Virus record (IMG/VR): IMGVR_UViG_3300012211_000001
Location: 1 to 52,326 of that record
DNA from: a virus
DNA: 52,326 nt
Direction: 5' to 3' (one strand)
Shown: piece after piece, positions 12,587 through 41,779 of the stretch
Layout: each line of letters opens with the position of its first letter
How positions within the stretch are numbered: the first letter of the stretch is position 1
Position numbers and translations under genes: made by a program
The notes under the pieces: generated by a model
What the model saw: only the letters and a program-made list of their open reading frames with translations
What the model was told of the DNA's origin: nothing
Database searches by the model: none

Positions 12587-12908
12587 TCTGATCGTCGGTC
12601 TGGTGCTACTCACTGGAGTGCAGACGGCTTCCGCACAAGGTATAGGGATCTTTCTGCATCACGATCGCTTGGCAGAATACGGCGCGGGGTTCGGACTCAA
12701 TGTCCTCTCGCGCGGTCCCTGGATTGCAAAGGATTTTCGTAAACCCGTGATCCGTTTGGTTGGGGTGCAGATCACGAGTTACGCCTATGAGCGCTTGTTC
12801 GACTACAACGGGTTCTCCTGGAATGACTATCGGCAGCGGCTCTACGGGTATCTCGTCACTGAGACGGTCATCGAGGGCGGTCGATGGATATGGCACCAGA
12901 TCCGATGA
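12579..12908 (+). CDS. Exported small protein, 109 aa
   Basis: Residues 1-19 form a textbook signal peptide (MRSLIVGLVLLTGVQTASA) ending in an AxA-like cleavage site. The mature part is compact and aromatic with no Cys pairs. It overlaps the previous gene by 8 nt and the MuF gene by ATGA. An exported protein in a head operon is unusual; it may act in the host envelope. Function unknown. Confidence 0.7.
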   Translation: MRSLIVGLVLLTGVQTASAQGIGIFLHHDRLAEYGAGFGLNVLSRGPWIAKDFRKPVIRLVGVQITSYAYERLFDYNGFSWNDYRQRLYGYLVTETVIEGGRWIWHQIR

Positions 12909-14593
12909 CCATTACGATTGCGAAGTCTTTCGTTGATGATCTGCTGGCCTTGGCGGATCAGCTCGCCCCCAAACTGCGACGTGCGTTCCTTGACGCGATT
13001 GCCGCACTCCGTGATGAACTCACCCCGACCACGATCGCGGACCTCTTGCAGGGGGCCCATCCGACGGCGATCGAATTGTGGCAGCGGCTCCAAGAATTAT
13101 TGACGCCACCGATGCAGGATGCCATCCTTGCAGGTGTCGTGGAGGTGGGCGGATTGACGGGCGAGCAGTTCCCGCCCAGTGTGCAAATCCAGTTCGCGTT
13201 CGACCGCACCAATCCTTTCGCGCTCGATGCCGTGGATACGATCGTGGCCGATGCAGTGCGCGATATCGCCAATGCGAGTCAAGATGCGATTCGGCTGATC
13301 CTGCGTCAGGGCTTCACGGATGGATTGACACCCGATCAGATGGGCCGCCGACTCCGTGCGAACATTGGCCTGACGGATCGCTATGCTCAAGCCGTAGAGA
13401 ACTATCGGCAATCCCTGCTGGATCAGGATACCTCCGTAGGGCGTGCCGACGCATTGGCTGATGCCTACGCGCGCCGGCTCCTGAATATTCGCGCGAGCGC
13501 GATTGCGCGGACGGAATCCATTCGTGCGATGAGTGCCGGGCAGGACGCCTTGTGGGCCAGTGCGGTGGAGCAGAAACTCTTAGACCCTCAGCGCACCCGT
13601 CGTGATTGGATTGTGACGGAGGATGATCGGCTGTGTCCGATCTGCGAAGCGATCCCAGACCAGAATCCTGATGGCGTCGCCCTTGGGGAGCCGTTTCAGT
13701 CTGATGTTGGGCCATTGCAGTATCCGCCAGCACATCCCCTATGCTTTCCGGGAGATACGCTCGTAGCGTCCCGTTATGGGATTGCGGCCCAGAGTAAACG
13801 ATGGTATCAGGGACAACTTGTCATCATCCGCACGGCAGGAGGTAAGCAGCTTTCCACTACCCCCAATCATCCAATACTCACGAGTTGCGGTTGGATGGCG
13901 GCGAGCACGCTTGATGAATCCTGCGATGTCATCTGCGACCTGTTCGCGCAGCGGGTGAGTACGATTGATGACAATGATGGTCTGATGCCAACCAGCATCG
14001 AAGAAGTAGCGGACACGCTGTGGCAGGCGTCGCAGATGCGAACCGTTGAAATGCCAATTGCCGCCGAAGATTTCCACGGCGACGGGAAAGGCTCCCAAAT
14101 CGCAATTGTAAGGGCCCACAGCTTGTTGGGGGATAGTGCCGATTCCCTGCGCTTTGAGCCATCCTCCGACTTCGATTTCATACCAGGTTTGTTGACCGAG
14201 GCGTTGGATTTCCAAGGCTCTGATACACAACGATTCCAGTGTGCGCCGACTACCACGGGTTGCACTATGGGCGGCGACGGTTTGCCTGCATCGTTGATCT
14301 GTAGTCATATGCGACCACTTGAGCCGCTCGGCATCACTTTGGGATCGCATGGTAATGCCGTGCTCCCGCAGGATACGGTCAATGACATTTCGGCTGACCT
14401 GCTCTCGTATGGCGAGTTGGTTGGTCGATATCCCAGCGAGATAATCTTGGACAAGATCATCCGAGTTGAGCGTCGTGATTTTTCGGGTCATGTCTACAAC
14501 CTCCAGACAGGTGGCGGATGGTACATCGCTGAAGGTATTATAGCACACAATTGTCGCTGTGCGGTTACCCTTTCCTTCAAGGAATCCTCGTGA
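12905..14593 (+). CDS. MuF-like minor head protein precursor, interrupted by an intein
   Basis: 562 aa before splicing. The ATG at 12905 overlaps the previous stop as ATGA; an in-frame ATG at 12884 is an alternative. The N-extein (residues 1-279) is helical and ends in the SPP1 gp7/Mu F-like zinc-type domain: ARTESIRAMSAG, then CPICEAI and PPAHPL. The family motif HPxCRC is split, with HPL before and CRCAVTLS after a 270-residue intein (280-549), so splicing would rebuild the conserved site. The C-extein is only 13 residues. The mature protein (292 aa) probably sits at the portal inside the head. The stop overlaps the next gene as GTGA. Confidence 0.9.
   Translation: MTITIAKSFVDDLLALADQLAPKLRRAFLDAIAALRDELTPTTIADLLQGAHPTAIELWQRLQELLTPPMQDAILAGVVEVGGLTGEQFPPSVQIQFAFDRTNPFALDAVDTIVADAVRDIANASQDAIRLILRQGFTDGLTPDQMGRRLRANIGLTDRYAQAVENYRQSLLDQDTSVGRADALADAYARRLLNIRASAIARTESIRAMSAGQDALWASAVEQKLLDPQRTRRDWIVTEDDRLCPICEAIPDQNPDGVALGEPFQSDVGPLQYPPAHPLCFPGDTLVASRYGIAAQSKRWYQGQLVIIRTAGGKQLSTTPNHPILTSCGWMAASTLDESCDVICDLFAQRVSTIDDNDGLMPTSIEEVADTLWQASQMRTVEMPIAAEDFHGDGKGSQIAIVRAHSLLGDSADSLRFEPSSDFDFIPGLLTEALDFQGSDTQRFQCAPTTTGCTMGGDGLPASLICSHMRPLEPLGITLGSHGNAVLPQDTVNDISADLLSYGELVGRYPSEIILDKIIRVERRDFSGHVYNLQTGGGWYIAEGIIAHNCRCAVTLSFKESS
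13739..14491 (-). CDS. Antisense homing endonuclease nested in the intein (HTH + Vsr/EDxHD-like nuclease)
   Basis: 250 aa. ATG at 14491 has a GGAGG at 14504-14500, 8 nt upstream. Residues 11-50 form a resolvase-like helix-turn-helix (DLVQDYLAG-ST-QLAIRE-VSRNVIDRILREHGI). Residues 86-195 look like a PD-(D/E)xK core of the Vsr/DUF559/EDxHD kind: Glu105 or Glu107 in the first helix, Asp131 in YNCDLG, Glu140 in AVEIFGG, His147 in NWH, then R-x3-R and a GW-QTIIVI strand. Residues 196-250 are basic and antisense to blocks A and B. The TAG stop lies on the last N-extein codon. A GTG at 14548 would add 19 residues but lacks a ribosome site. The likely job is cutting intein-free alleles of the MuF gene; that is inferred. 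Confidence 0.85.
   Translation of the reverse strand: MTRKITTLNSDDLVQDYLAGISTNQLAIREQVSRNVIDRILREHGITMRSQSDAERLKWSHMTTDQRCRQTVAAHSATRGSRRTLESLCIRALEIQRLGQQTWYEIEVGGWLKAQGIGTIPQQAVGPYNCDLGAFPVAVEIFGGNWHFNGSHLRRLPQRVRYFFDAGWHQTIIVINRTHPLREQVADDIAGFIKRARRHPTATREYWMIGGSGKLLTSCRADDDKLSLIPSFTLGRNPITGRYERISRKA
13742..14551 (+). other. Intein (Hint domain) in the MuF-like protein
   Basis: Block A starts with the nucleophile Cys (CFPGDTLV), block B carries TTPNHPIL, block F is VYNLQTGGGWYIAEG and block G ends IIAHN with Cys as the +1 residue. All residues needed for class 1 splicing appear present. The splicing parts occupy about 13742-13935 and 14480-14551. The central sense-strand region (about 13940-14470) shows no LAGLIDADG or HNH motif and reads like filler. 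The DNA is occupied on the other strand by a nuclease gene in exact codon register. Confidence 0.93.
14537..14545 (-). promoter_or_regulatory. Extended -10 promoter for the antisense nuclease
   Basis: The minus strand reads TGCTATAAT, a perfect extended -10 (TGn plus consensus hexamer). These bases encode the Gly-Ile-Ile-Ala residues that end the intein on the plus strand. No good -35 lies 17 nt upstream, which extended -10 promoters do not need. Transcription would start near 14530 and leave about 38 nt of leader with the GGAGG before the ATG at 14491. Confidence 0.65.
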
Positions 14594-15240
14594 ATCTCGC
14601 CATCGTCGGTGGGCGGTTGAGCCAGTCCAAGGACAAGGTTCCCTATCATAAACCGGGTTGGGAACTGTGGTCGATGAATGCGATGTACGGTAGCAAATAC
14701 AACGTGCTTCAGGAGCAGGATAGCAAGAAAGGTTTTTCGTTCCATCGCTGGTTTGAACTCCACCGACGGGCGTGGCTCCTCAAACATTATGGGCAGCGCG
14801 GATTCAAGGAACACGTCCGCGCGTTGGACCTCATGGGTATCCCCGTCTATGTGTGGGGAGAGCCTTGGCCGGAAATCAGCCGGAGCATTGAATATCCCAA
14901 GGAGCATGTCGAGGCCATGGTGTCCCACGGCCGCTATCATGCGGGAAGTTTTGACTGGATGCTGGCCTGTGCACTCACACTCTCGTCGGCCTTTGAGGAA
15001 ATCCATTTCTACGGTGCGGATATGGGATTATTCGATGGCGAGCCCTTGAGTGGACGCCCGGCCCTGGAATACTGGTGCGGCGTGGCTGAAGGTCGCGGCA
15101 TCCCGATCATCGCGCATGGCGGGTCACTCTTTAAGGTCTTACAGGTGGTGCAGAGCGAGCGACAATATGGCGCTGAGGATGTGGATAACATCTTGAGTGT
15201 CGCACCGAAGAAAGCCAAGGTGGTCGGAGTGCGACTGTGA
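14590..15240 (+). CDS. DUF115/Maf-like protein (possible nonulosonate transferase or MptE-like)
   Basis: 216 aa; GTG at 14590 overlaps the previous stop as GTGA. The fold opens with a Rossmann-like LAIVGGRLSQSKDKVPY and has a late core of SFDWMLACALTL, EIHFYGADMG and RPALEYWCGVAEGRGIPI. The same core occurs in the phage gene at 22778. Related DUF115 proteins include flagellin glycosylation factors (Maf) that transfer nonulosonic acids, and MptE-like enzymes. Its place upstream of NeuA- and NeuB-like genes favours a sugar role, but the domain is also common in phages without them. Confidence 0.6.
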   Translation: MNLAIVGGRLSQSKDKVPYHKPGWELWSMNAMYGSKYNVLQEQDSKKGFSFHRWFELHRRAWLLKHYGQRGFKEHVRALDLMGIPVYVWGEPWPEISRSIEYPKEHVEAMVSHGRYHAGSFDWMLACALTLSSAFEEIHFYGADMGLFDGEPLSGRPALEYWCGVAEGRGIPIIAHGGSLFKVLQVVQSERQYGAEDVDNILSVAPKKAKVVGVRL

Positions 15241-16283
15241 GTGGTACACTGCTCGTCATTCCCGCTCGGGGCGGGTCAGTCGGGATTCCGCGCAAAGCGA
15301 TCCGTCCGCTCAACGGGAAATCTCCCCTGCAATACACACTCACGACTGCTCAGGGGTTAGGGGATGTCGTGGTCGTGACCGATGATCTGGAGATTGCAGG
15401 GCAAGCCTACGCGCTGGGAGCCGTGGTCATCCCAGAACCGCAACTTCCCACAGCGCCGGGCGTGCATACCTGGGAACCCGTGGTCTATCGCACCGTGCTC
15501 GAAGCCGAACAGGGTCGTGAACCCTATGCGATCGTGGGTGTCTTGCAATGTACCTCACCGTTTCTTCGCCGCACGACGATCCAACGGTGTTTGGATGCAC
15601 TTGCAGGGCACCCCATCGCCTTGACGGTAAAGGATGATCGTCATGCGAGAATCGGGACGCCGCGGAAACCTCGGGAACAAATGGCTCCATGCTGGAAAGT
15701 GACGGGCGGCTGTACAGCCATCCGGCGTGAGTTTCTGGTGGACGGCGCGTGGCCTGTGGAGCGCGGGTTACCGATTATCGTCGAGGGAGCGGAAGGTGTG
15801 GACCTGGACACGCCTGAGGACTGGGCGATCGCGGAGATGTACGCCGGCGCGACGGAACGCGAGTTCTTGCTCGCCCGTGTGCTGGTGCCCGACGAGTCTC
15901 GGGGGACTGCGGTCATTCTCTCGGGGTGGGATGAACCGCCGATGGATCAGCGTCTCCGGTTCGCGATGACTCCGAGTGATGCCATCTCTTTGCACGGTGA
16001 GAACACACGCGACGAAGCGGAACGCGCCCTTGCCCTCCGCTCTGGGAATGACATGACGATCATTACGTCCGCGTATCATCAACCACGCGCATTCCTGACG
16101 ATGCTCAAGGTCTTAATCGATCACGGGCTCTCTCGGACGGTGCGAATCTGGAATCGCCCCGCGCCGAGTCCGATGACGCGACTCGCGGATGAGTGGCATA
16201 AGATTTTAGAATATCAGGCCAAGGGTGATGTCGCGACAGCAGAGCAAGGGCTGCTATATCTTGACTGGCGGGACTCAGTGTGA
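15237..16283 (+). CDS. NeuA-like CMP-nonulosonate cytidylyltransferase fused to a DUF218 domain
   Basis: 348 aa, GTG start with GTGA overlap. Residues 1-205 match acylneuraminate cytidylyltransferase: IPARGGSVGIPRKAI at the nucleotide site, VVTDDLEIA, LQCTSPFLRR and GVDLDTPEDW. This enzyme joins CTP and a sialic-acid-type sugar to give the CMP-sugar donor. Residues about 205-345 look like a DUF218 (YdcF/ElyC-like) domain: AVILSG, HGENTRDEAE and IITSAYHQPRAF. DUF218 proteins act on envelope lipid-linked sugars. The fusion is unusual. It probably supplies an activated sugar to coat host surface or virion; that role is inferred. Confidence 0.8.
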   Translation: MSGTLLVIPARGGSVGIPRKAIRPLNGKSPLQYTLTTAQGLGDVVVVTDDLEIAGQAYALGAVVIPEPQLPTAPGVHTWEPVVYRTVLEAEQGREPYAIVGVLQCTSPFLRRTTIQRCLDALAGHPIALTVKDDRHARIGTPRKPREQMAPCWKVTGGCTAIRREFLVDGAWPVERGLPIIVEGAEGVDLDTPEDWAIAEMYAGATEREFLLARVLVPDESRGTAVILSGWDEPPMDQRLRFAMTPSDAISLHGENTRDEAERALALRSGNDMTIITSAYHQPRAFLTMLKVLIDHGLSRTVRIWNRPAPSPMTRLADEWHKILEYQAKGDVATAEQGLLYLDWRDSV

Positions 16284-16444
16284 ATTTGCGCACCATCCGA
16301 GGATTTGGTGAAGATTGGCTGCGCGCCAGTTACATTTCATGGCTTGTGGGAGCCTATGCATGGTGGGCTCCTTGGTGGTTGCGATTGGTGTTTATCGGTC
16401 TAATCGCTGGAATGATTGCCCTCGCAGCCCATAGCTACATGTGA
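16280..16444 (+). CDS. Small membrane protein, 54 aa
   Basis: GTG at 16280 overlaps the previous stop as GTGA, and its own TGA overlaps the next GTG in the same way. A short amphipathic N-terminus is followed by one or two membrane segments (YISWLVGAYAWWAPWW and LVFIGLIAGMIALAA). It lies inside the sugar cassette, so it may anchor or transport the product. It has no recognised family. Confidence 0.7.
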   Translation: MNLRTIRGFGEDWLRASYISWLVGAYAWWAPWWLRLVFIGLIAGMIALAAHSYM

Positions 16445-17382
16445 GATATCTTGTCCTGGGGGGGGGCGGTTTTATCGGCACGCATCTCGCTCGCTATCTC
16501 TTAGCCCATGATCATCACGTCACGACCATTGATCCGCGGCGCTGCGATCTCCGTGGCGTCTTGCATATCTACGGCTCCGCTGCTGATCCCACACTGATGC
16601 AACGTACCATCCCTCGGCACGATGGAGTCTTTCATCTCGCCGCCGTGGTGGGATTCGCCAAGGTGATGCCCAATCTGCTGGGCACCGTGACAGGGACCTT
16701 GAGCAGTGCGGAGACGGTCTTCCAGATTGCCGGCCAGACGAAAACACGCACGCTGTTTACTTCGACGAGCGCCGTCTATGGCCGGGGCAACGGGTCGCCT
16801 GCACGGGAAACGGACGATAGCTTCGTCGGGCCTTCCCCGGTCCAGTCATGGAGTTATGCCTACGCTAAAGCCGCCGCCGAGTGCTTGGCGTTTGCCTATA
16901 TCCGGGAAGCGCAAGCGCCGTTCATCGTCACACGGGTGTTCAATACCGTGGGGCCAGGGCAACGCCCAGAAGCGGGATTCGTGCTTCCCCGGTTCTGTCG
17001 TCAAGCGTCGAGCGGGGAGCCGCTGACAGTATATGCCCCTGGAACGCAACGTCGGACGTTTGGGCATGTGGCCGATGTGGTGCGGGGATTAACCGATCTC
17101 ATGGAATGCGATTCAGCCGTCGGAGAACTGGTGAACATCGGAGGGGTGGCGAATCACAGCATGCGTGAGTTAGCGGAGATTGTGAAGTTCCGCGCCCGGT
17201 CCAGCTCGCCTATCGAGACGATACCACCGCCTTATGAACACGGATATGATGATATCGAAAGCCGCGCCCCGGATCTGACGAAAATCGGCAAACTGATCGG
17301 GTATGTTCCCCAATATCCGATAGATGCGATGGTGGATGAAGTCCTAGCGGAATACCATAGCCGAAAGCTGGTACTCATCTGA
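16441..17382 (+). CDS. NAD-dependent sugar epimerase/dehydratase (extended SDR)
   Basis: 313 aa, GTG start. Residues 1-15 hold the NAD site GGGGFIGTHL, residues about 60-70 HLAAVVG, and the catalytic Tyr-x3-Lys is in YAYAKAAAE. A DNIGG-like VNIGG and an R-TFGHVADVV block complete the GalE/RmlB-like pattern. It converts a nucleotide sugar, but epimerase versus dehydratase cannot be told by eye. It sits between NeuA- and NeuB-like genes and may build the precursor or decorate the same glycan. Confidence 0.88.
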   Translation: MRYLVLGGGGFIGTHLARYLLAHDHHVTTIDPRRCDLRGVLHIYGSAADPTLMQRTIPRHDGVFHLAAVVGFAKVMPNLLGTVTGTLSSAETVFQIAGQTKTRTLFTSTSAVYGRGNGSPARETDDSFVGPSPVQSWSYAYAKAAAECLAFAYIREAQAPFIVTRVFNTVGPGQRPEAGFVLPRFCRQASSGEPLTVYAPGTQRRTFGHVADVVRGLTDLMECDSAVGELVNIGGVANHSMRELAEIVKFRARSSSPIETIPPPYEHGYDDIESRAPDLTKIGKLIGYVPQYPIDAMVDEVLAEYHSRKLVLI

Positions 17383-17411
17383 CCTTCTCCATTGCGGGGC
17401 GCTTCATCGGC

Positions 17412-18278
17412 ATGGAGCATTCGGCCTATCTTATTGCAGAGATCGGCGGGAACCATGGCGGTGATCCCAATAAGGCCGACGACTTAATTCGTGCGGCGGC
17501 AATGGCTGGAGCAGATGCCATTAAGATGCAGGCATATCGACCCGAATATCTGGTGACGGGAGATGCCCCTGCTTACTGGGGAGCCTCCGGGACGCAGCGG
17601 CAGTATTTCGAGACAACGGCGAGTTTCCCGTTAGCGGTATGGAAACATCTGGCGGCACAGGCTTCTGCTTATCGCATTGCATTCCTCCTGTCGGCGTTTG
17701 ATGAAGAATTGGTGGATGAACTTGATCCACTTGTCGCAGCTTGGAAGGTTGCGTCAGGAGACATCACCCATCAGTCCCTGATCCGTCGGATTGCAAGTAA
17801 GGGCAAGCCAGTTTTGTTGAGTACAGGTGCATCCACGATTCCGGAGATTTATCAGGCGCTTGAATGGCTAGGGGAATTACCCGTCTGTATTATGCATTGC
17901 TGTTTGTCCTATCCGGCATATGCAAACGATGCCAACCTCAGATGTATCCTCACGCTCCGGAAAACCTTCACTCGCGAGATTGGCTGGAGCGATCATATTC
18001 TGGGGAATCCCGACGTGCTCCGTACCGCATATGCGCTGGGCGCTAATGCCCTCGAAAAACATTTTACGATTCACACGGATGCAGATGGGCCAGATCACAC
18101 CCATTCATGGACTCCCTTATCGCTACGGGCGGACCGAGAAGCCGTGGACCATTTACGGGACTATTTGGGTACGGGAGAGAAGATCGTCCAGCAATGCGAG
18201 AGTGCTGCCCGCCGATACGCACGCCGTTCCATGCATAGGATCGACGGGCAACCACGGATGTTACGTCCTAACTATTGA
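17412..18278 (+). CDS. NeuB-family nonulosonic acid synthase
   Basis: 288 aa. The family signatures appear in order: AEIGGNHGGD, KMQAYRP, VASGDITH, LSTGAS, HCCLSYPAYANDANL, IGWSDHILG and EKHFT, followed by DHTHSWTP. It condenses phosphoenolpyruvate with a six-carbon sugar to give a nine-carbon sialic-acid-like product. The usual C-terminal antifreeze-like (SAF) domain is missing, so the protein is shorter than standard NeuB (about 340-350 aa). No NeuC-like hydrolysing epimerase is seen nearby, so the substrate probably comes from the host. Confidence 0.92.
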   Translation: MEHSAYLIAEIGGNHGGDPNKADDLIRAAAMAGADAIKMQAYRPEYLVTGDAPAYWGASGTQRQYFETTASFPLAVWKHLAAQASAYRIAFLLSAFDEELVDELDPLVAAWKVASGDITHQSLIRRIASKGKPVLLSTGASTIPEIYQALEWLGELPVCIMHCCLSYPAYANDANLRCILTLRKTFTREIGWSDHILGNPDVLRTAYALGANALEKHFTIHTDADGPDHTHSWTPLSLRADREAVDHLRDYLGTGEKIVQQCESAARRYARRSMHRIDGQPRMLRPNY

Positions 18279-18779: not shown

Positions 18780-18810
18780 CCGCTTGTTCCTTATAGGAAA
18801 GGCGGTTTTT
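18780..18810 (+). terminator. Rho-independent terminator before the HNH gene
   Basis: The outer stem CCGC/GCGG (18780-18783, 18802-18805) and inner stem TTCCT/AGGAA (18787-18791, 18795-18799) enclose loop TAT, followed by TTTTT at 18806-18810. The T-run abuts the ATG at 18811. It would end the sugar-cassette transcript. Bases 18700-18779 before it hold no gene I can support. Confidence 0.65.
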
Positions 18811-19125
18811 ATGTTTTGGCGTCCCGAAGATCACTGCGCGCATTGCGGTAGTACCTACCATGGCAGTTTCTATCACGAATACATCATCAACCGCAGCGAA
18901 GCGTGGCAGCGCAAATGCCAACGTGCATACCAGCGCTACGGACATATGTGCCAAGCGTGTCGGATTCGCGCGGCGGTACAAGTCCACCACATGACGTATA
19001 GGCGCCTGGGAAGGGAGAAATTGAGTGATCTGCGCGTCCTTTGCGATCAGTGCCATCGCTGTCTACATCGGAAAATGGAGGAACAGGGCGGTTGGGGATT
19101 GGATCAGCGGAGACTCGCTATATAG
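18811..19125 (+). CDS. HNH endonuclease, 104 aa
   Basis: A compact HNH module: CAHCG near the N-terminus, CQACRIRAAVQVHHMTYRRLGREKLSDLRVLCDQCHRCLH with paired Cys and the catalytic His in VHH. ATG at 18811 is chosen because it follows GGAAAGGCGG. The longer TTG-initiated frame from 18784 would start inside the terminator stem. Phage HNH proteins of this size may be homing nucleases or terminase helpers. Its position between two terminators suggests a mobile insert. Confidence 0.82.
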   Translation: MFWRPEDHCAHCGSTYHGSFYHEYIINRSEAWQRKCQRAYQRYGHMCQACRIRAAVQVHHMTYRRLGREKLSDLRVLCDQCHRCLHRKMEEQGGWGLDQRRLAI

Positions 19126-40259: not shown

Positions 40260-40439
40260 GCCCCTCTCAGCAGGGGCGACGCAGGAAACCAACTATGGAC
40301 GGGCGGGGATTTGCACCCCGCTTGGACTTTCGCCTCCCTAGATGTCACCGAACTTCAGCACGGGGCGATTCGCGCGCGGCACGCCCCGTCTCGGAAACCC
40401 GTCCGGGCCCTACAAGGTCTGGAAGTGGATTGCGGTCTA
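40260..40439 (-). ncRNA. Candidate omega/reRNA of the TnpB gene
   Basis: A closing helix CCCGTCC (40398-40404) with GGACGGG (40297-40303) surrounds an 8-bp hairpin ACGGGGCG/CGCCCCGT (40360-40367, 40382-40389) and a 6-bp hairpin GCGGGG/CCCCGC (40303-40308, 40316-40321). A further hairpin GCCCCT/AGGGGC sits at 40260-40277. TnpB guide RNAs are known to lie at the 3' end of tnpB and beyond it. Location and dense pairing match; exact ends and guide cannot be read. Confidence 0.6.
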
Positions 40440-41597
40440 ACCCCATGGTTCTCTACGGGTTTGTGGATCACGGTCCCAGTCCGCTTCTGTCGGCACGCTC
40501 GACCTAGCTTCAGCCCACGTTGAGCCGACAAGCGCCATCCCGGCGCCTAAGATGTTACGAGCTGCGTTGTGGTCACGGTCCAATTCGGCACCGCAGGGGC
40601 AAGAATGCCACCGCTGGGCGAGCGTCTTTTTCACGACCTGACCACATGCGCTGCACTGTTGCGACGTACCGGCGGGACTTACCGCAATCAGTGTCCGAGC
40701 AGCGCTTTCAGCCTTCTCGGCCAGCAATCGCAGGAACTGCCCCCACCCGGCATCATGCACGGACTTCGCCAGCATTCCACCAGCGAGACCCTTTACGTTC
40801 AGGTCCTCGACGGCAATCAGATCAAAGCGGTTGACCAGCGACCGGGAAACCTTGTGGTGAAAATCCCTGCGTTGTTGCTGGACGTGCTCATAGATCCGAT
40901 GAAGGGAAAGTACAGCCTTCTTCCGCCCATGGCTTCCCATGTGTCGGCGTGCGACGCGACGTTGCGCTAGGCGAAGTCTCGCCTGACCGCTCGCGAAGTA
41001 TCGAGGGTTGGAAACCGCCTCCCCAGTGGAAAGCATGGCGAATGACGTGAGCCCTACATCTACGCCAATCGCAGCCCCGCTTCTGGGTAGCGCTTCAGTA
41101 TTTACTTCGTTAGCGAAGCAGACGAACCAGCGGCCAGCATTGCGCTTGACAGTCACCGTCTTGACCTTGCCTTCCAATGGTCGATGCAACTTTAACTTGA
41201 TCTGTCCCACACCGAACAAAGCAACCCGACCAGCGATGATCCAGTGAGTCTTTCCTGAAAACGTAAGGGAATCATAGCGTCGTGCTGAGCGGAAGCGTGG
41301 ATAGCCGGGAGCTTGACCAGCCTTCACCCGTCGGAAGAAGGCCCGGAAGGCTCGGTCCACGCGCCGCAGTACGTCCTTGGCCACCCTCTGGCTTGGGATG
41401 GCCAAATCCCCTGATGCACGAATCTCCTTGAGCTGTGCGGCCTGTTCGTATAACCCGATGCTCTTCCGCTGCATCCGCCACGCCTCGCGTCGTTCTTCAA
41501 GGGCCGCGTTGTAGAGTCTTGCCGCCTCGGACAATTGCAATTCAAGCGCCATTACTTGGGCAATGGTCGGATAGAGTCGGTACTTAAAGGTTTTCAT
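40437..41597 (-). CDS. tnpB: TnpB, RNA-guided nuclease of the IS200/IS605 type
   Basis: 386 aa. ATG 41597 overlaps the upstream stop as TAATG. RuvC acidic triad: Asp180 (IGVDVGLTSFA), Glu264 (IAVEDLNVKG) and Asp342 (DRDHNAARNIL). Zinc finger Cys315, Cys318, Cys333, Cys335 (CSACG, HSCPCG). All catalytic residues are present. No tnpA transposase is nearby, so it is a solitary TnpB. TnpB enzymes cut DNA under RNA guidance and aid element retention; in a phage it might act against rival DNA. That last role is inferred. Confidence 0.95.
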   Translation of the reverse strand: MKTFKYRLYPTIAQVMALELQLSEAARLYNAALEERREAWRMQRKSIGLYEQAAQLKEIRASGDLAIPSQRVAKDVLRRVDRAFRAFFRRVKAGQAPGYPRFRSARRYDSLTFSGKTHWIIAGRVALFGVGQIKLKLHRPLEGKVKTVTVKRNAGRWFVCFANEVNTEALPRSGAAIGVDVGLTSFAMLSTGEAVSNPRYFASGQARLRLAQRRVARRHMGSHGRKKAVLSLHRIYEHVQQQRRDFHHKVSRSLVNRFDLIAVEDLNVKGLAGGMLAKSVHDAGWGQFLRLLAEKAESAARTLIAVSPAGTSQQCSACGQVVKKTLAQRWHSCPCGAELDRDHNAARNILGAGMALVGSTWAEARSSVPTEADWDRDPQTRREPWG

Positions 41598-41779
41598 TAC
41601 GGGTTTCCCACGGGAGGAGGCAGCAACCCAAGCCGACGAGCGCAACCGATATGATAATGCTCGTAAACTATCGGGTCGCTTTCCTTGACGTTGGGGGGCG
41701 GGGGCGCGATTCGCGATAACGCTTCGTCCCCCGTCCACAGCGCCCCCCCGCAAGCTTGGCATGTGGCCTCAATTTTCAT
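41597..41779 (-). CDS. Small zinc-binding protein, 60 aa
   Basis: ATG 41779 overlaps the previous stop as ATGA. CQACGGALWTGDEAL near the N-terminus and YHIGCARRLGLLPPP near the end suggest one zinc site. Its last codons merge into the TnpB start, so TnpB landed at its 3' end or it was trimmed there. The end of the upstream gene holds a similar PPVG segment. Confidence 0.68.
   Translation of the reverse strand: MKIEATCQACGGALWTGDEALSRIAPPPPNVKESDPIVYEHYHIGCARRLGLLPPPVGNP

Follow-up and report, generated by a model that had tools for sequence, protein, structure and literature searches.

Can one stretch of phage DNA encode a protein-splicing intein on one strand and, on the other, the endonuclease that would make it mobile? 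The question arises from a MuF-like head morphogenesis gene in a 52-kb IMG/VR virus record (IMGVR_UViG_3300012211_000001), all 52,326 nucleotides of which were analysed (the window). The gene shares its region with terminase and portal genes. A first-pass annotation, made from the letters alone, had described an intact Hint intein in the HPxCRC motif of the MuF protein, with no nuclease on the sense strand and a homing-endonuclease gene running antisense through it. Coordinates are collected in Table 1.

Table 1. Features of the MuF locus and of the gene on its opposite strand (window positions)
Feature	Position	Strand	Basis
MuF-like head morphogenesis precursor, 569 aa	12884..14593	+	ORF; phrog_3517 E=1e-38; Phage_Mu_F E=1e-4
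MuF N-extein	12884-13741	+	
Intein, 270 codons, Cys1 to Asn270, Cys+1 next	13742..14551	+	motifs; Pfam Intein_splicing
Hint N-part, blocks A and B; TTPNHPI	13742..13939	+	intein_Nterm match; omega
Hint C-part, block F GHVYNLQT, block G IIAHN	14441..14551	+	intein_Cterm match; omega
MuF C-extein	14552-14590	+	
Antisense nuclease gene, 250 aa	13739..14491	-	ATG 14491, TAG 13739-13741
Shine-Dalgarno GGAGGT	14499..14504	-	7 nt upstream of antisense ATG; opposite block F Asn-Leu
Predicted helix-turn-helix (HTH), residues 10-43	14363..14464	-	AlphaFold helices; HTH_58 E=0.02 (window); HTH_23 in 33/78
Predicted PD-(D/E)XK (Vsr/DUF559-like) catalytic core, residues 103-175	13967..14185	-	E105, Y128, N129, D131, E140

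The intein is inserted in the motif PPAHPL/CRC (the slash marks the insertion point) and is intact as described. The features by which inteins are recognized (Cys or Ser at position 1, a TxxH block B, blocks F and G, a terminal Asn, and Cys, Ser or Thr at +1) are all present, here as Cys1, TTPNHPI, GHVYNLQT, IIAHN with the penultimate His and Asn270, and Cys+1. Pfam Intein_splicing matches the intein alone with E=1.8e-8 and 34.8 bits, slightly below the cut-off of 35.8. AlphaFold predicts residues 1-70 and 234-270 mostly with pLDDT >90, as the extended beta strands expected for a Hint domain, and the middle mostly with pLDDT <70, as disordered. No nuclease profile matches the sense strand of the window intein. 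An 'FHGD' motif in the sense middle is the complement of the active-site region of the antisense nuclease, and this middle, read in sense, appears to be filler with a sequence imposed by the nuclease.

Other genes in the window are of separate interest. Downstream of MuF, positions 15237-18278 (+) hold a cytidylyltransferase, an NAD-dependent epimerase and a NeuB-family gene, which make up a nonulosonic (sialic-like) acid pathway inside the virion gene region. A small conventional HNH endonuclease gene at 18784-19125 (+) has no relation to the intein. At 40437-41762 (-) there is an IS605 OrfB/TnpB-like gene (OrfB_IS605, Cas12f1-like TNB), which may mark another mobile element, one that encodes an RNA-guided nuclease.

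On the minus strand, one frame is open over the entire intein and lies in exact codon register with the sense frame; the remaining two minus frames contain 6 and 12 stops. The antisense TAG sits opposite the last N-extein codon, as the first-pass annotation had placed it. The antisense start is opposite the His codon of block F (CAT gives ATG and CAC gives GTG), and the adjacent Asn-Leu codons give the Shine-Dalgarno sequence. Codon choice at these positions is strongly skewed: block F His is CAT in 154 of 182 inteins as against 49% elsewhere (p=1e-21), Leu is CTC in 141 of 182 as against 32% (p=1e-34), and Asn is AAC in 122 of 155 as against 44% (p=7e-18). We read this bias as a sign of selection for antisense translation.

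No convincing promoter precedes the gene in the window: a sigma-70 scan upstream of the ATG gives one weak site with 0.5 expected, which is near chance. In several enterobacterial phages (e.g. L008, L012, L015, L018), genes upstream of the nuclease share its strand, and therefore read-through might express the nuclease at a different time from the capsid genes; this is no more than an idea, and it fails in Gordonia phages, where the neighbours are all on the MuF strand. Among the phage records whose annotation was inspected, the antisense ORF is annotated in one only, that of Salmonella phage PK2 (L217, PV446483; locus 501-1310), as 'hypothetical protein'.

Long antisense frames can be spurious. 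An exact mirror register combined with few antisense-stop codons favours them, and permuting the window's own codons leaves the frame open. It might therefore be proposed that the frame is open only since the sense strand avoids TTA, CTA and TCA, with its conservation merely mirroring that of the sense protein. It should be pointed out that codon permutation within a sequence preserves the stop count and is thus a weak test of openness, which was judged instead by profile scores, comparison with the exteins and substitution patterns. Within the same genes, the exteins contain antisense-stop codons 4-5 times as often as the inteins do: TTA and CTA together make up 3.0% of intein Leu versus 13.4% of extein Leu (p=1.5e-53), and TCA 2.7% of intein Ser versus 12.9% of extein Ser (p=1e-45). 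Synonymous recoding of the sense strand costs about 150 bits of antisense profile score. With an HMM built without the window, the real antisense frame scores 208 bits as against 54-83 after recoding, and across the family the median falls from 227 to 77 bits.

The substitution pattern is decisive. Among 24 close pairs, the middle of the intein changes fastest at sense codon position 1 (0.349), followed by position 3 (0.201) and position 2 (0.102), and sense position 1 is antisense position 3. In the exteins the rates at positions 1, 2 and 3 are 0.145, 0.098 and 0.452, with position 3 the fastest. The dN/dS comparison on each strand that the first-pass annotation had proposed gives the same picture. 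Omega, estimated from single-nucleotide codon changes in 18 close pairs that are partly non-independent, is 1.45 for sense and 0.18 for antisense in the middle of the intein. The relation is reversed at the Hint ends, with 0.24 for sense and 0.70 for antisense in the N-part, and 0.06 and 2.48 in the last 21 codons, which precede the antisense start. These values support separate purifying selection on each strand, acting in different places and where it would be expected. Because the antisense frame is constrained in the middle of the intein while the sense frame drifts there, a frame that merely shadows the sense gene is refuted by the pattern, and the biased start and Shine-Dalgarno codons, together with the confident fold and family matches described below, leave it a negligible probability. 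The antisense frame is a real, conserved gene under its own selection.

What does this gene encode? The antisense protein is modelled by AlphaFold with a mean pLDDT of 93.8; the model combines an HTH region at the N terminus with a core of alpha-beta-beta-beta-alpha-beta order. The top PDB match in Foldseek is the catalytic domain of I-Bth0305I (3r3p; probability 1.00, a modest E=3e-3, target TM-score 0.62), and the second is Vsr (1vsr; probability 0.97). In an alignment of 78 family members Y128, D131 and E140 are invariant, and E105, Q122, N129 and R159 nearly so (E105 and N129 in at least 90%). Profile matches among the 78 are to REase_MTES_1575 (37), HTH_23 (33), DUF559 (3) and NUMOD1 (2). 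The MTES_1575 matches are those at E<=0.01, the best being 9e-7; the window protein itself reaches E=0.05, under the Pfam cut-off. The family HMM also recovers bacterial proteins of DUF559 and MTES_1575 type, names that were assigned by eye from the sequence pattern. Thus, the description of the protein as HTH plus Vsr/DUF559-like holds at the level of family and model, and the predicted fold supports an HTH protein with a Vsr/I-Bth0305I-like PD-(D/E)XK nuclease domain.

The arrangement is not peculiar to the window. Related inteins are found at more than 200 distinct phage loci, and every antisense nuclease recovered is in exact register. A tblastn search with the antisense protein matched 127 phage records, several of which score higher for the antisense match than for the sense intein match; among the hosts are Salmonella, Gordonia, Pseudomonas, Aggregatibacter, Vibrio, Edwardsiella, Klebsiella, Escherichia, Mycobacterium and Cronobacter. 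Scans of IMG/VR and GTDB added further members. A search for related loci with the single 250-aa protein as query returned none, and 17 aligned sequences diverged too far to show conserved patterns; subsets were usable. A Hint N-part lies on the opposite strand in all 128 related loci, a C-part also in 125 at the threshold used, and the register is exact in 128 of 128.

An antisense-blind sample was obtained by searching IMG/VR with the Hint N-part alone, which removes selection for an open minus frame. It holds 193 non-redundant inteins, seven of which run off the contig, and 186 can be scored. The antisense nuclease is intact in 173 of the 186, and seven others differ only in having no recognised HTH part. 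Exact register holds in 192 of 192 inteins. Inteins that keep their splicing blocks and have a broken minus frame, which the first-pass annotation had named as a finding that would refute it, are rare cases of decay: three contain an internal stop, two have a truncated nuclease (inteins of 183 and 188 aa) and one has none (173 aa). These cases suggest that the Hint part outlasts the nuclease, as happens in homing cycles elsewhere. A single 'stop' that seemed to break 34 antisense frames was rejected, as it is the natural stop codon at the gene end.

Variation in length occurs in both directions. The short inteins at loci L196, L261 and L406 (188, 183 and 173 aa), with truncated or no nuclease, belong to the same Hint clade and are natural mini-inteins. 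In L128 (a Chloroflexi MAG) and L215 the antisense frames are longer (438-530 aa) and carry additional HTH-like repeats at the N terminus, which looks like growth of target recognition through added modules.

Is the element mobile? Intein-free MuF alleles are present in close Guernseyvirinae relatives (Salmonella phages), which is the sporadic distribution typical of homing endonucleases, and the nuclease gene is carried inside the element, as is also typical. When Salmonella phage SE1, which has the intein, is compared with Salmonella virus VSiP, which does not, mismatches amount to 19.2% within 120 nt of the site and 4.5% beyond (p=1.6e-11); the N side of the site has 25 silent changes and no amino acid change. 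NFG5577 against VSiP shows the same flank pattern (p=1.3e-13), and two intein-free phages, VSiP and St162, compared as a control, show no flank excess (p=0.31). Co-conversion from a diverged donor would leave such a footprint, but few phage pairs are involved and other recombination could also produce it.

Insertion sites also vary. They include Kagunavirus MuF (SRTSTT/C), mycobacteriophage Sejanus (KVWV/C), and a dCMP-deaminase-like gene, recognized by eye from an HSE...PCxxCAK motif, in Virus Rctr197k (L017, 1665-3017), where the intein again has an antisense nuclease. The Rctr197k gene is annotated as 'putative head morphogenesis protein', probably owing to the intein. Related MuF proteins can have either of two intein sites, SRTSTT/C in Escherichia phage fEg-Eco06 (L014) and PPAHPN/C in SE1 (L004).

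A real nuclease need not serve homing. Its main use could be in competition, by cutting co-infecting rivals that have no intein rather than by spreading the intein. Such a role has reportedly been seen for an intron endonuclease of phages, and nearly all copies of the present nuclease are intact. However, cutting an empty site would normally give both effects, and both the footprints that resemble co-conversion and the range of insertion sites speak for spread; competition as the main function is therefore unlikely. It is less likely still that a former or non-homing nuclease, e.g. a repair or regulatory DNA-binding protein, was trapped under an intein that is moved otherwise. DUF559/Vsr-like domains do occur in non-homing proteins, but every full-length homologue found is antisense to a Hint domain, no second nuclease was found in the intein, and two members carry NUMOD1. 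In the bacterial genomes searched there is no free-standing full-length nuclease: full-length matches are again antisense to Hint, and the other matches are to DUF559/MTES_1575-type catalytic domains or to the HTH only.

The locus is thus very probably a mobile intein with an antisense gene for its homing endonuclease. The sense strand would produce the MuF precursor, from which the Hint domain would excise itself and restore the HPLCRC motif. An antisense RNA would be translated into the nuclease, from the ATG or GTG opposite the block F His and the Shine-Dalgarno opposite Asn-Leu. During co-infection the nuclease would most probably cut MuF genes that lack the intein, at the insertion site or close to it, and repair would copy the intein with short flanks into the cut gene; production and splicing of the MuF precursor would come later. 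Antisense transcription, splicing, cleavage specificity and homing are the steps that we infer. The putative homing role given in the first-pass annotation is supported by the presence/absence pattern and the co-conversion-like footprint; its placing of splicing and mobility on opposite strands is supported by an arrangement conserved, under separate purifying selection, throughout a large family.

How does the element compare with known systems? Large mobile inteins with in-frame LAGLIDADG or HNH nucleases likewise unite Hint and a homing nuclease in one element, are sporadically distributed and insert at conserved motifs. Here, in contrast, the nuclease lies on the opposite strand and forms no part of the protein that splices; the sequence complementary to it is read as disordered filler within Hint. 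Group I introns, too, are known to carry homing endonuclease genes that run antisense to the host gene. In the introns, however, the nuclease occupies an RNA loop, whereas the present one is overlaid, codon for codon, on a second frame that also encodes protein. DUF559 and REase_MTES_1575 nucleases share the core pattern Q-x-P-[IV]-G-x-Y-x-x-D-...-E-x-D/G-G, but are sense genes with no HTH part and no link to inteins. I-Bth0305I, an intron-associated EDxHD homing endonuclease that is conventionally encoded, also joins a Vsr-like catalytic fold to DNA-binding modules (review PMC3943268). Of the EDxHD residues E-D-x-H-D, however, the 78-sequence alignment has no invariant His or following Asp.

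The closest parallel found is the ShiLan element, where an HNH nuclease uses the third reading frame of the strand that also encodes the host gene; a splicing domain is absent, and no ribosome-binding site is detectable (PMC11855218). As here, that phage insertion is in frame, conceals an endonuclease in a different reading frame, yields a disordered product in the host frame and has a homing-like distribution (PMC11855218). The present nuclease differs in being antisense, in mirror register, not HNH, joined to a Hint domain and preceded by a conserved Shine-Dalgarno. The Mu F protein of a Methylococcus capsulatus Mu-like prophage also has an intein, described as degenerate, with no recognizable endonuclease and doubtful mobility (PMC517821); the likeness is by description and concerns the sense strand only. 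Salmonella UPWr phages have an intein-containing capsid morphogenesis protein, and no mention of an antisense gene was found in that report (PMC8425127). In the literature library searched, no published case of an antisense endonuclease in an intein was found. For overlapping frames, PMC11855218 cites a preprint with a title that reads in part 'Actinobacteriophage Inteins: ... Non-Canonical Architecture' (10.1101/2025.01.02.630785), which lies outside this comparison and is the main risk to novelty. With that proviso, these inteins probably form a widespread and undescribed mobile class, with splicing and homing on opposite strands in mirror codon register, a nuclease start within block F, and both proteins functional and separately selected.

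If true, the finding would stand among the best supported cases of long antisense overlap between genes in DNA phages: a single 750-base stretch yields two folds that have no relation to each other, and the mirror register is kept in phages of Gammaproteobacteria, Actinobacteria and Chloroflexota-associated genomes. It would also offer a new homing endonuclease family. Annotation practice for 'endonuclease-free' inteins would change, and the minus strand of the M. capsulatus F-protein intein would be worth re-reading. Finally, these loci would provide a testable system for how two complementary strands evolve when each is under selection of its own, a problem also posed for the ancient synthetase genes.
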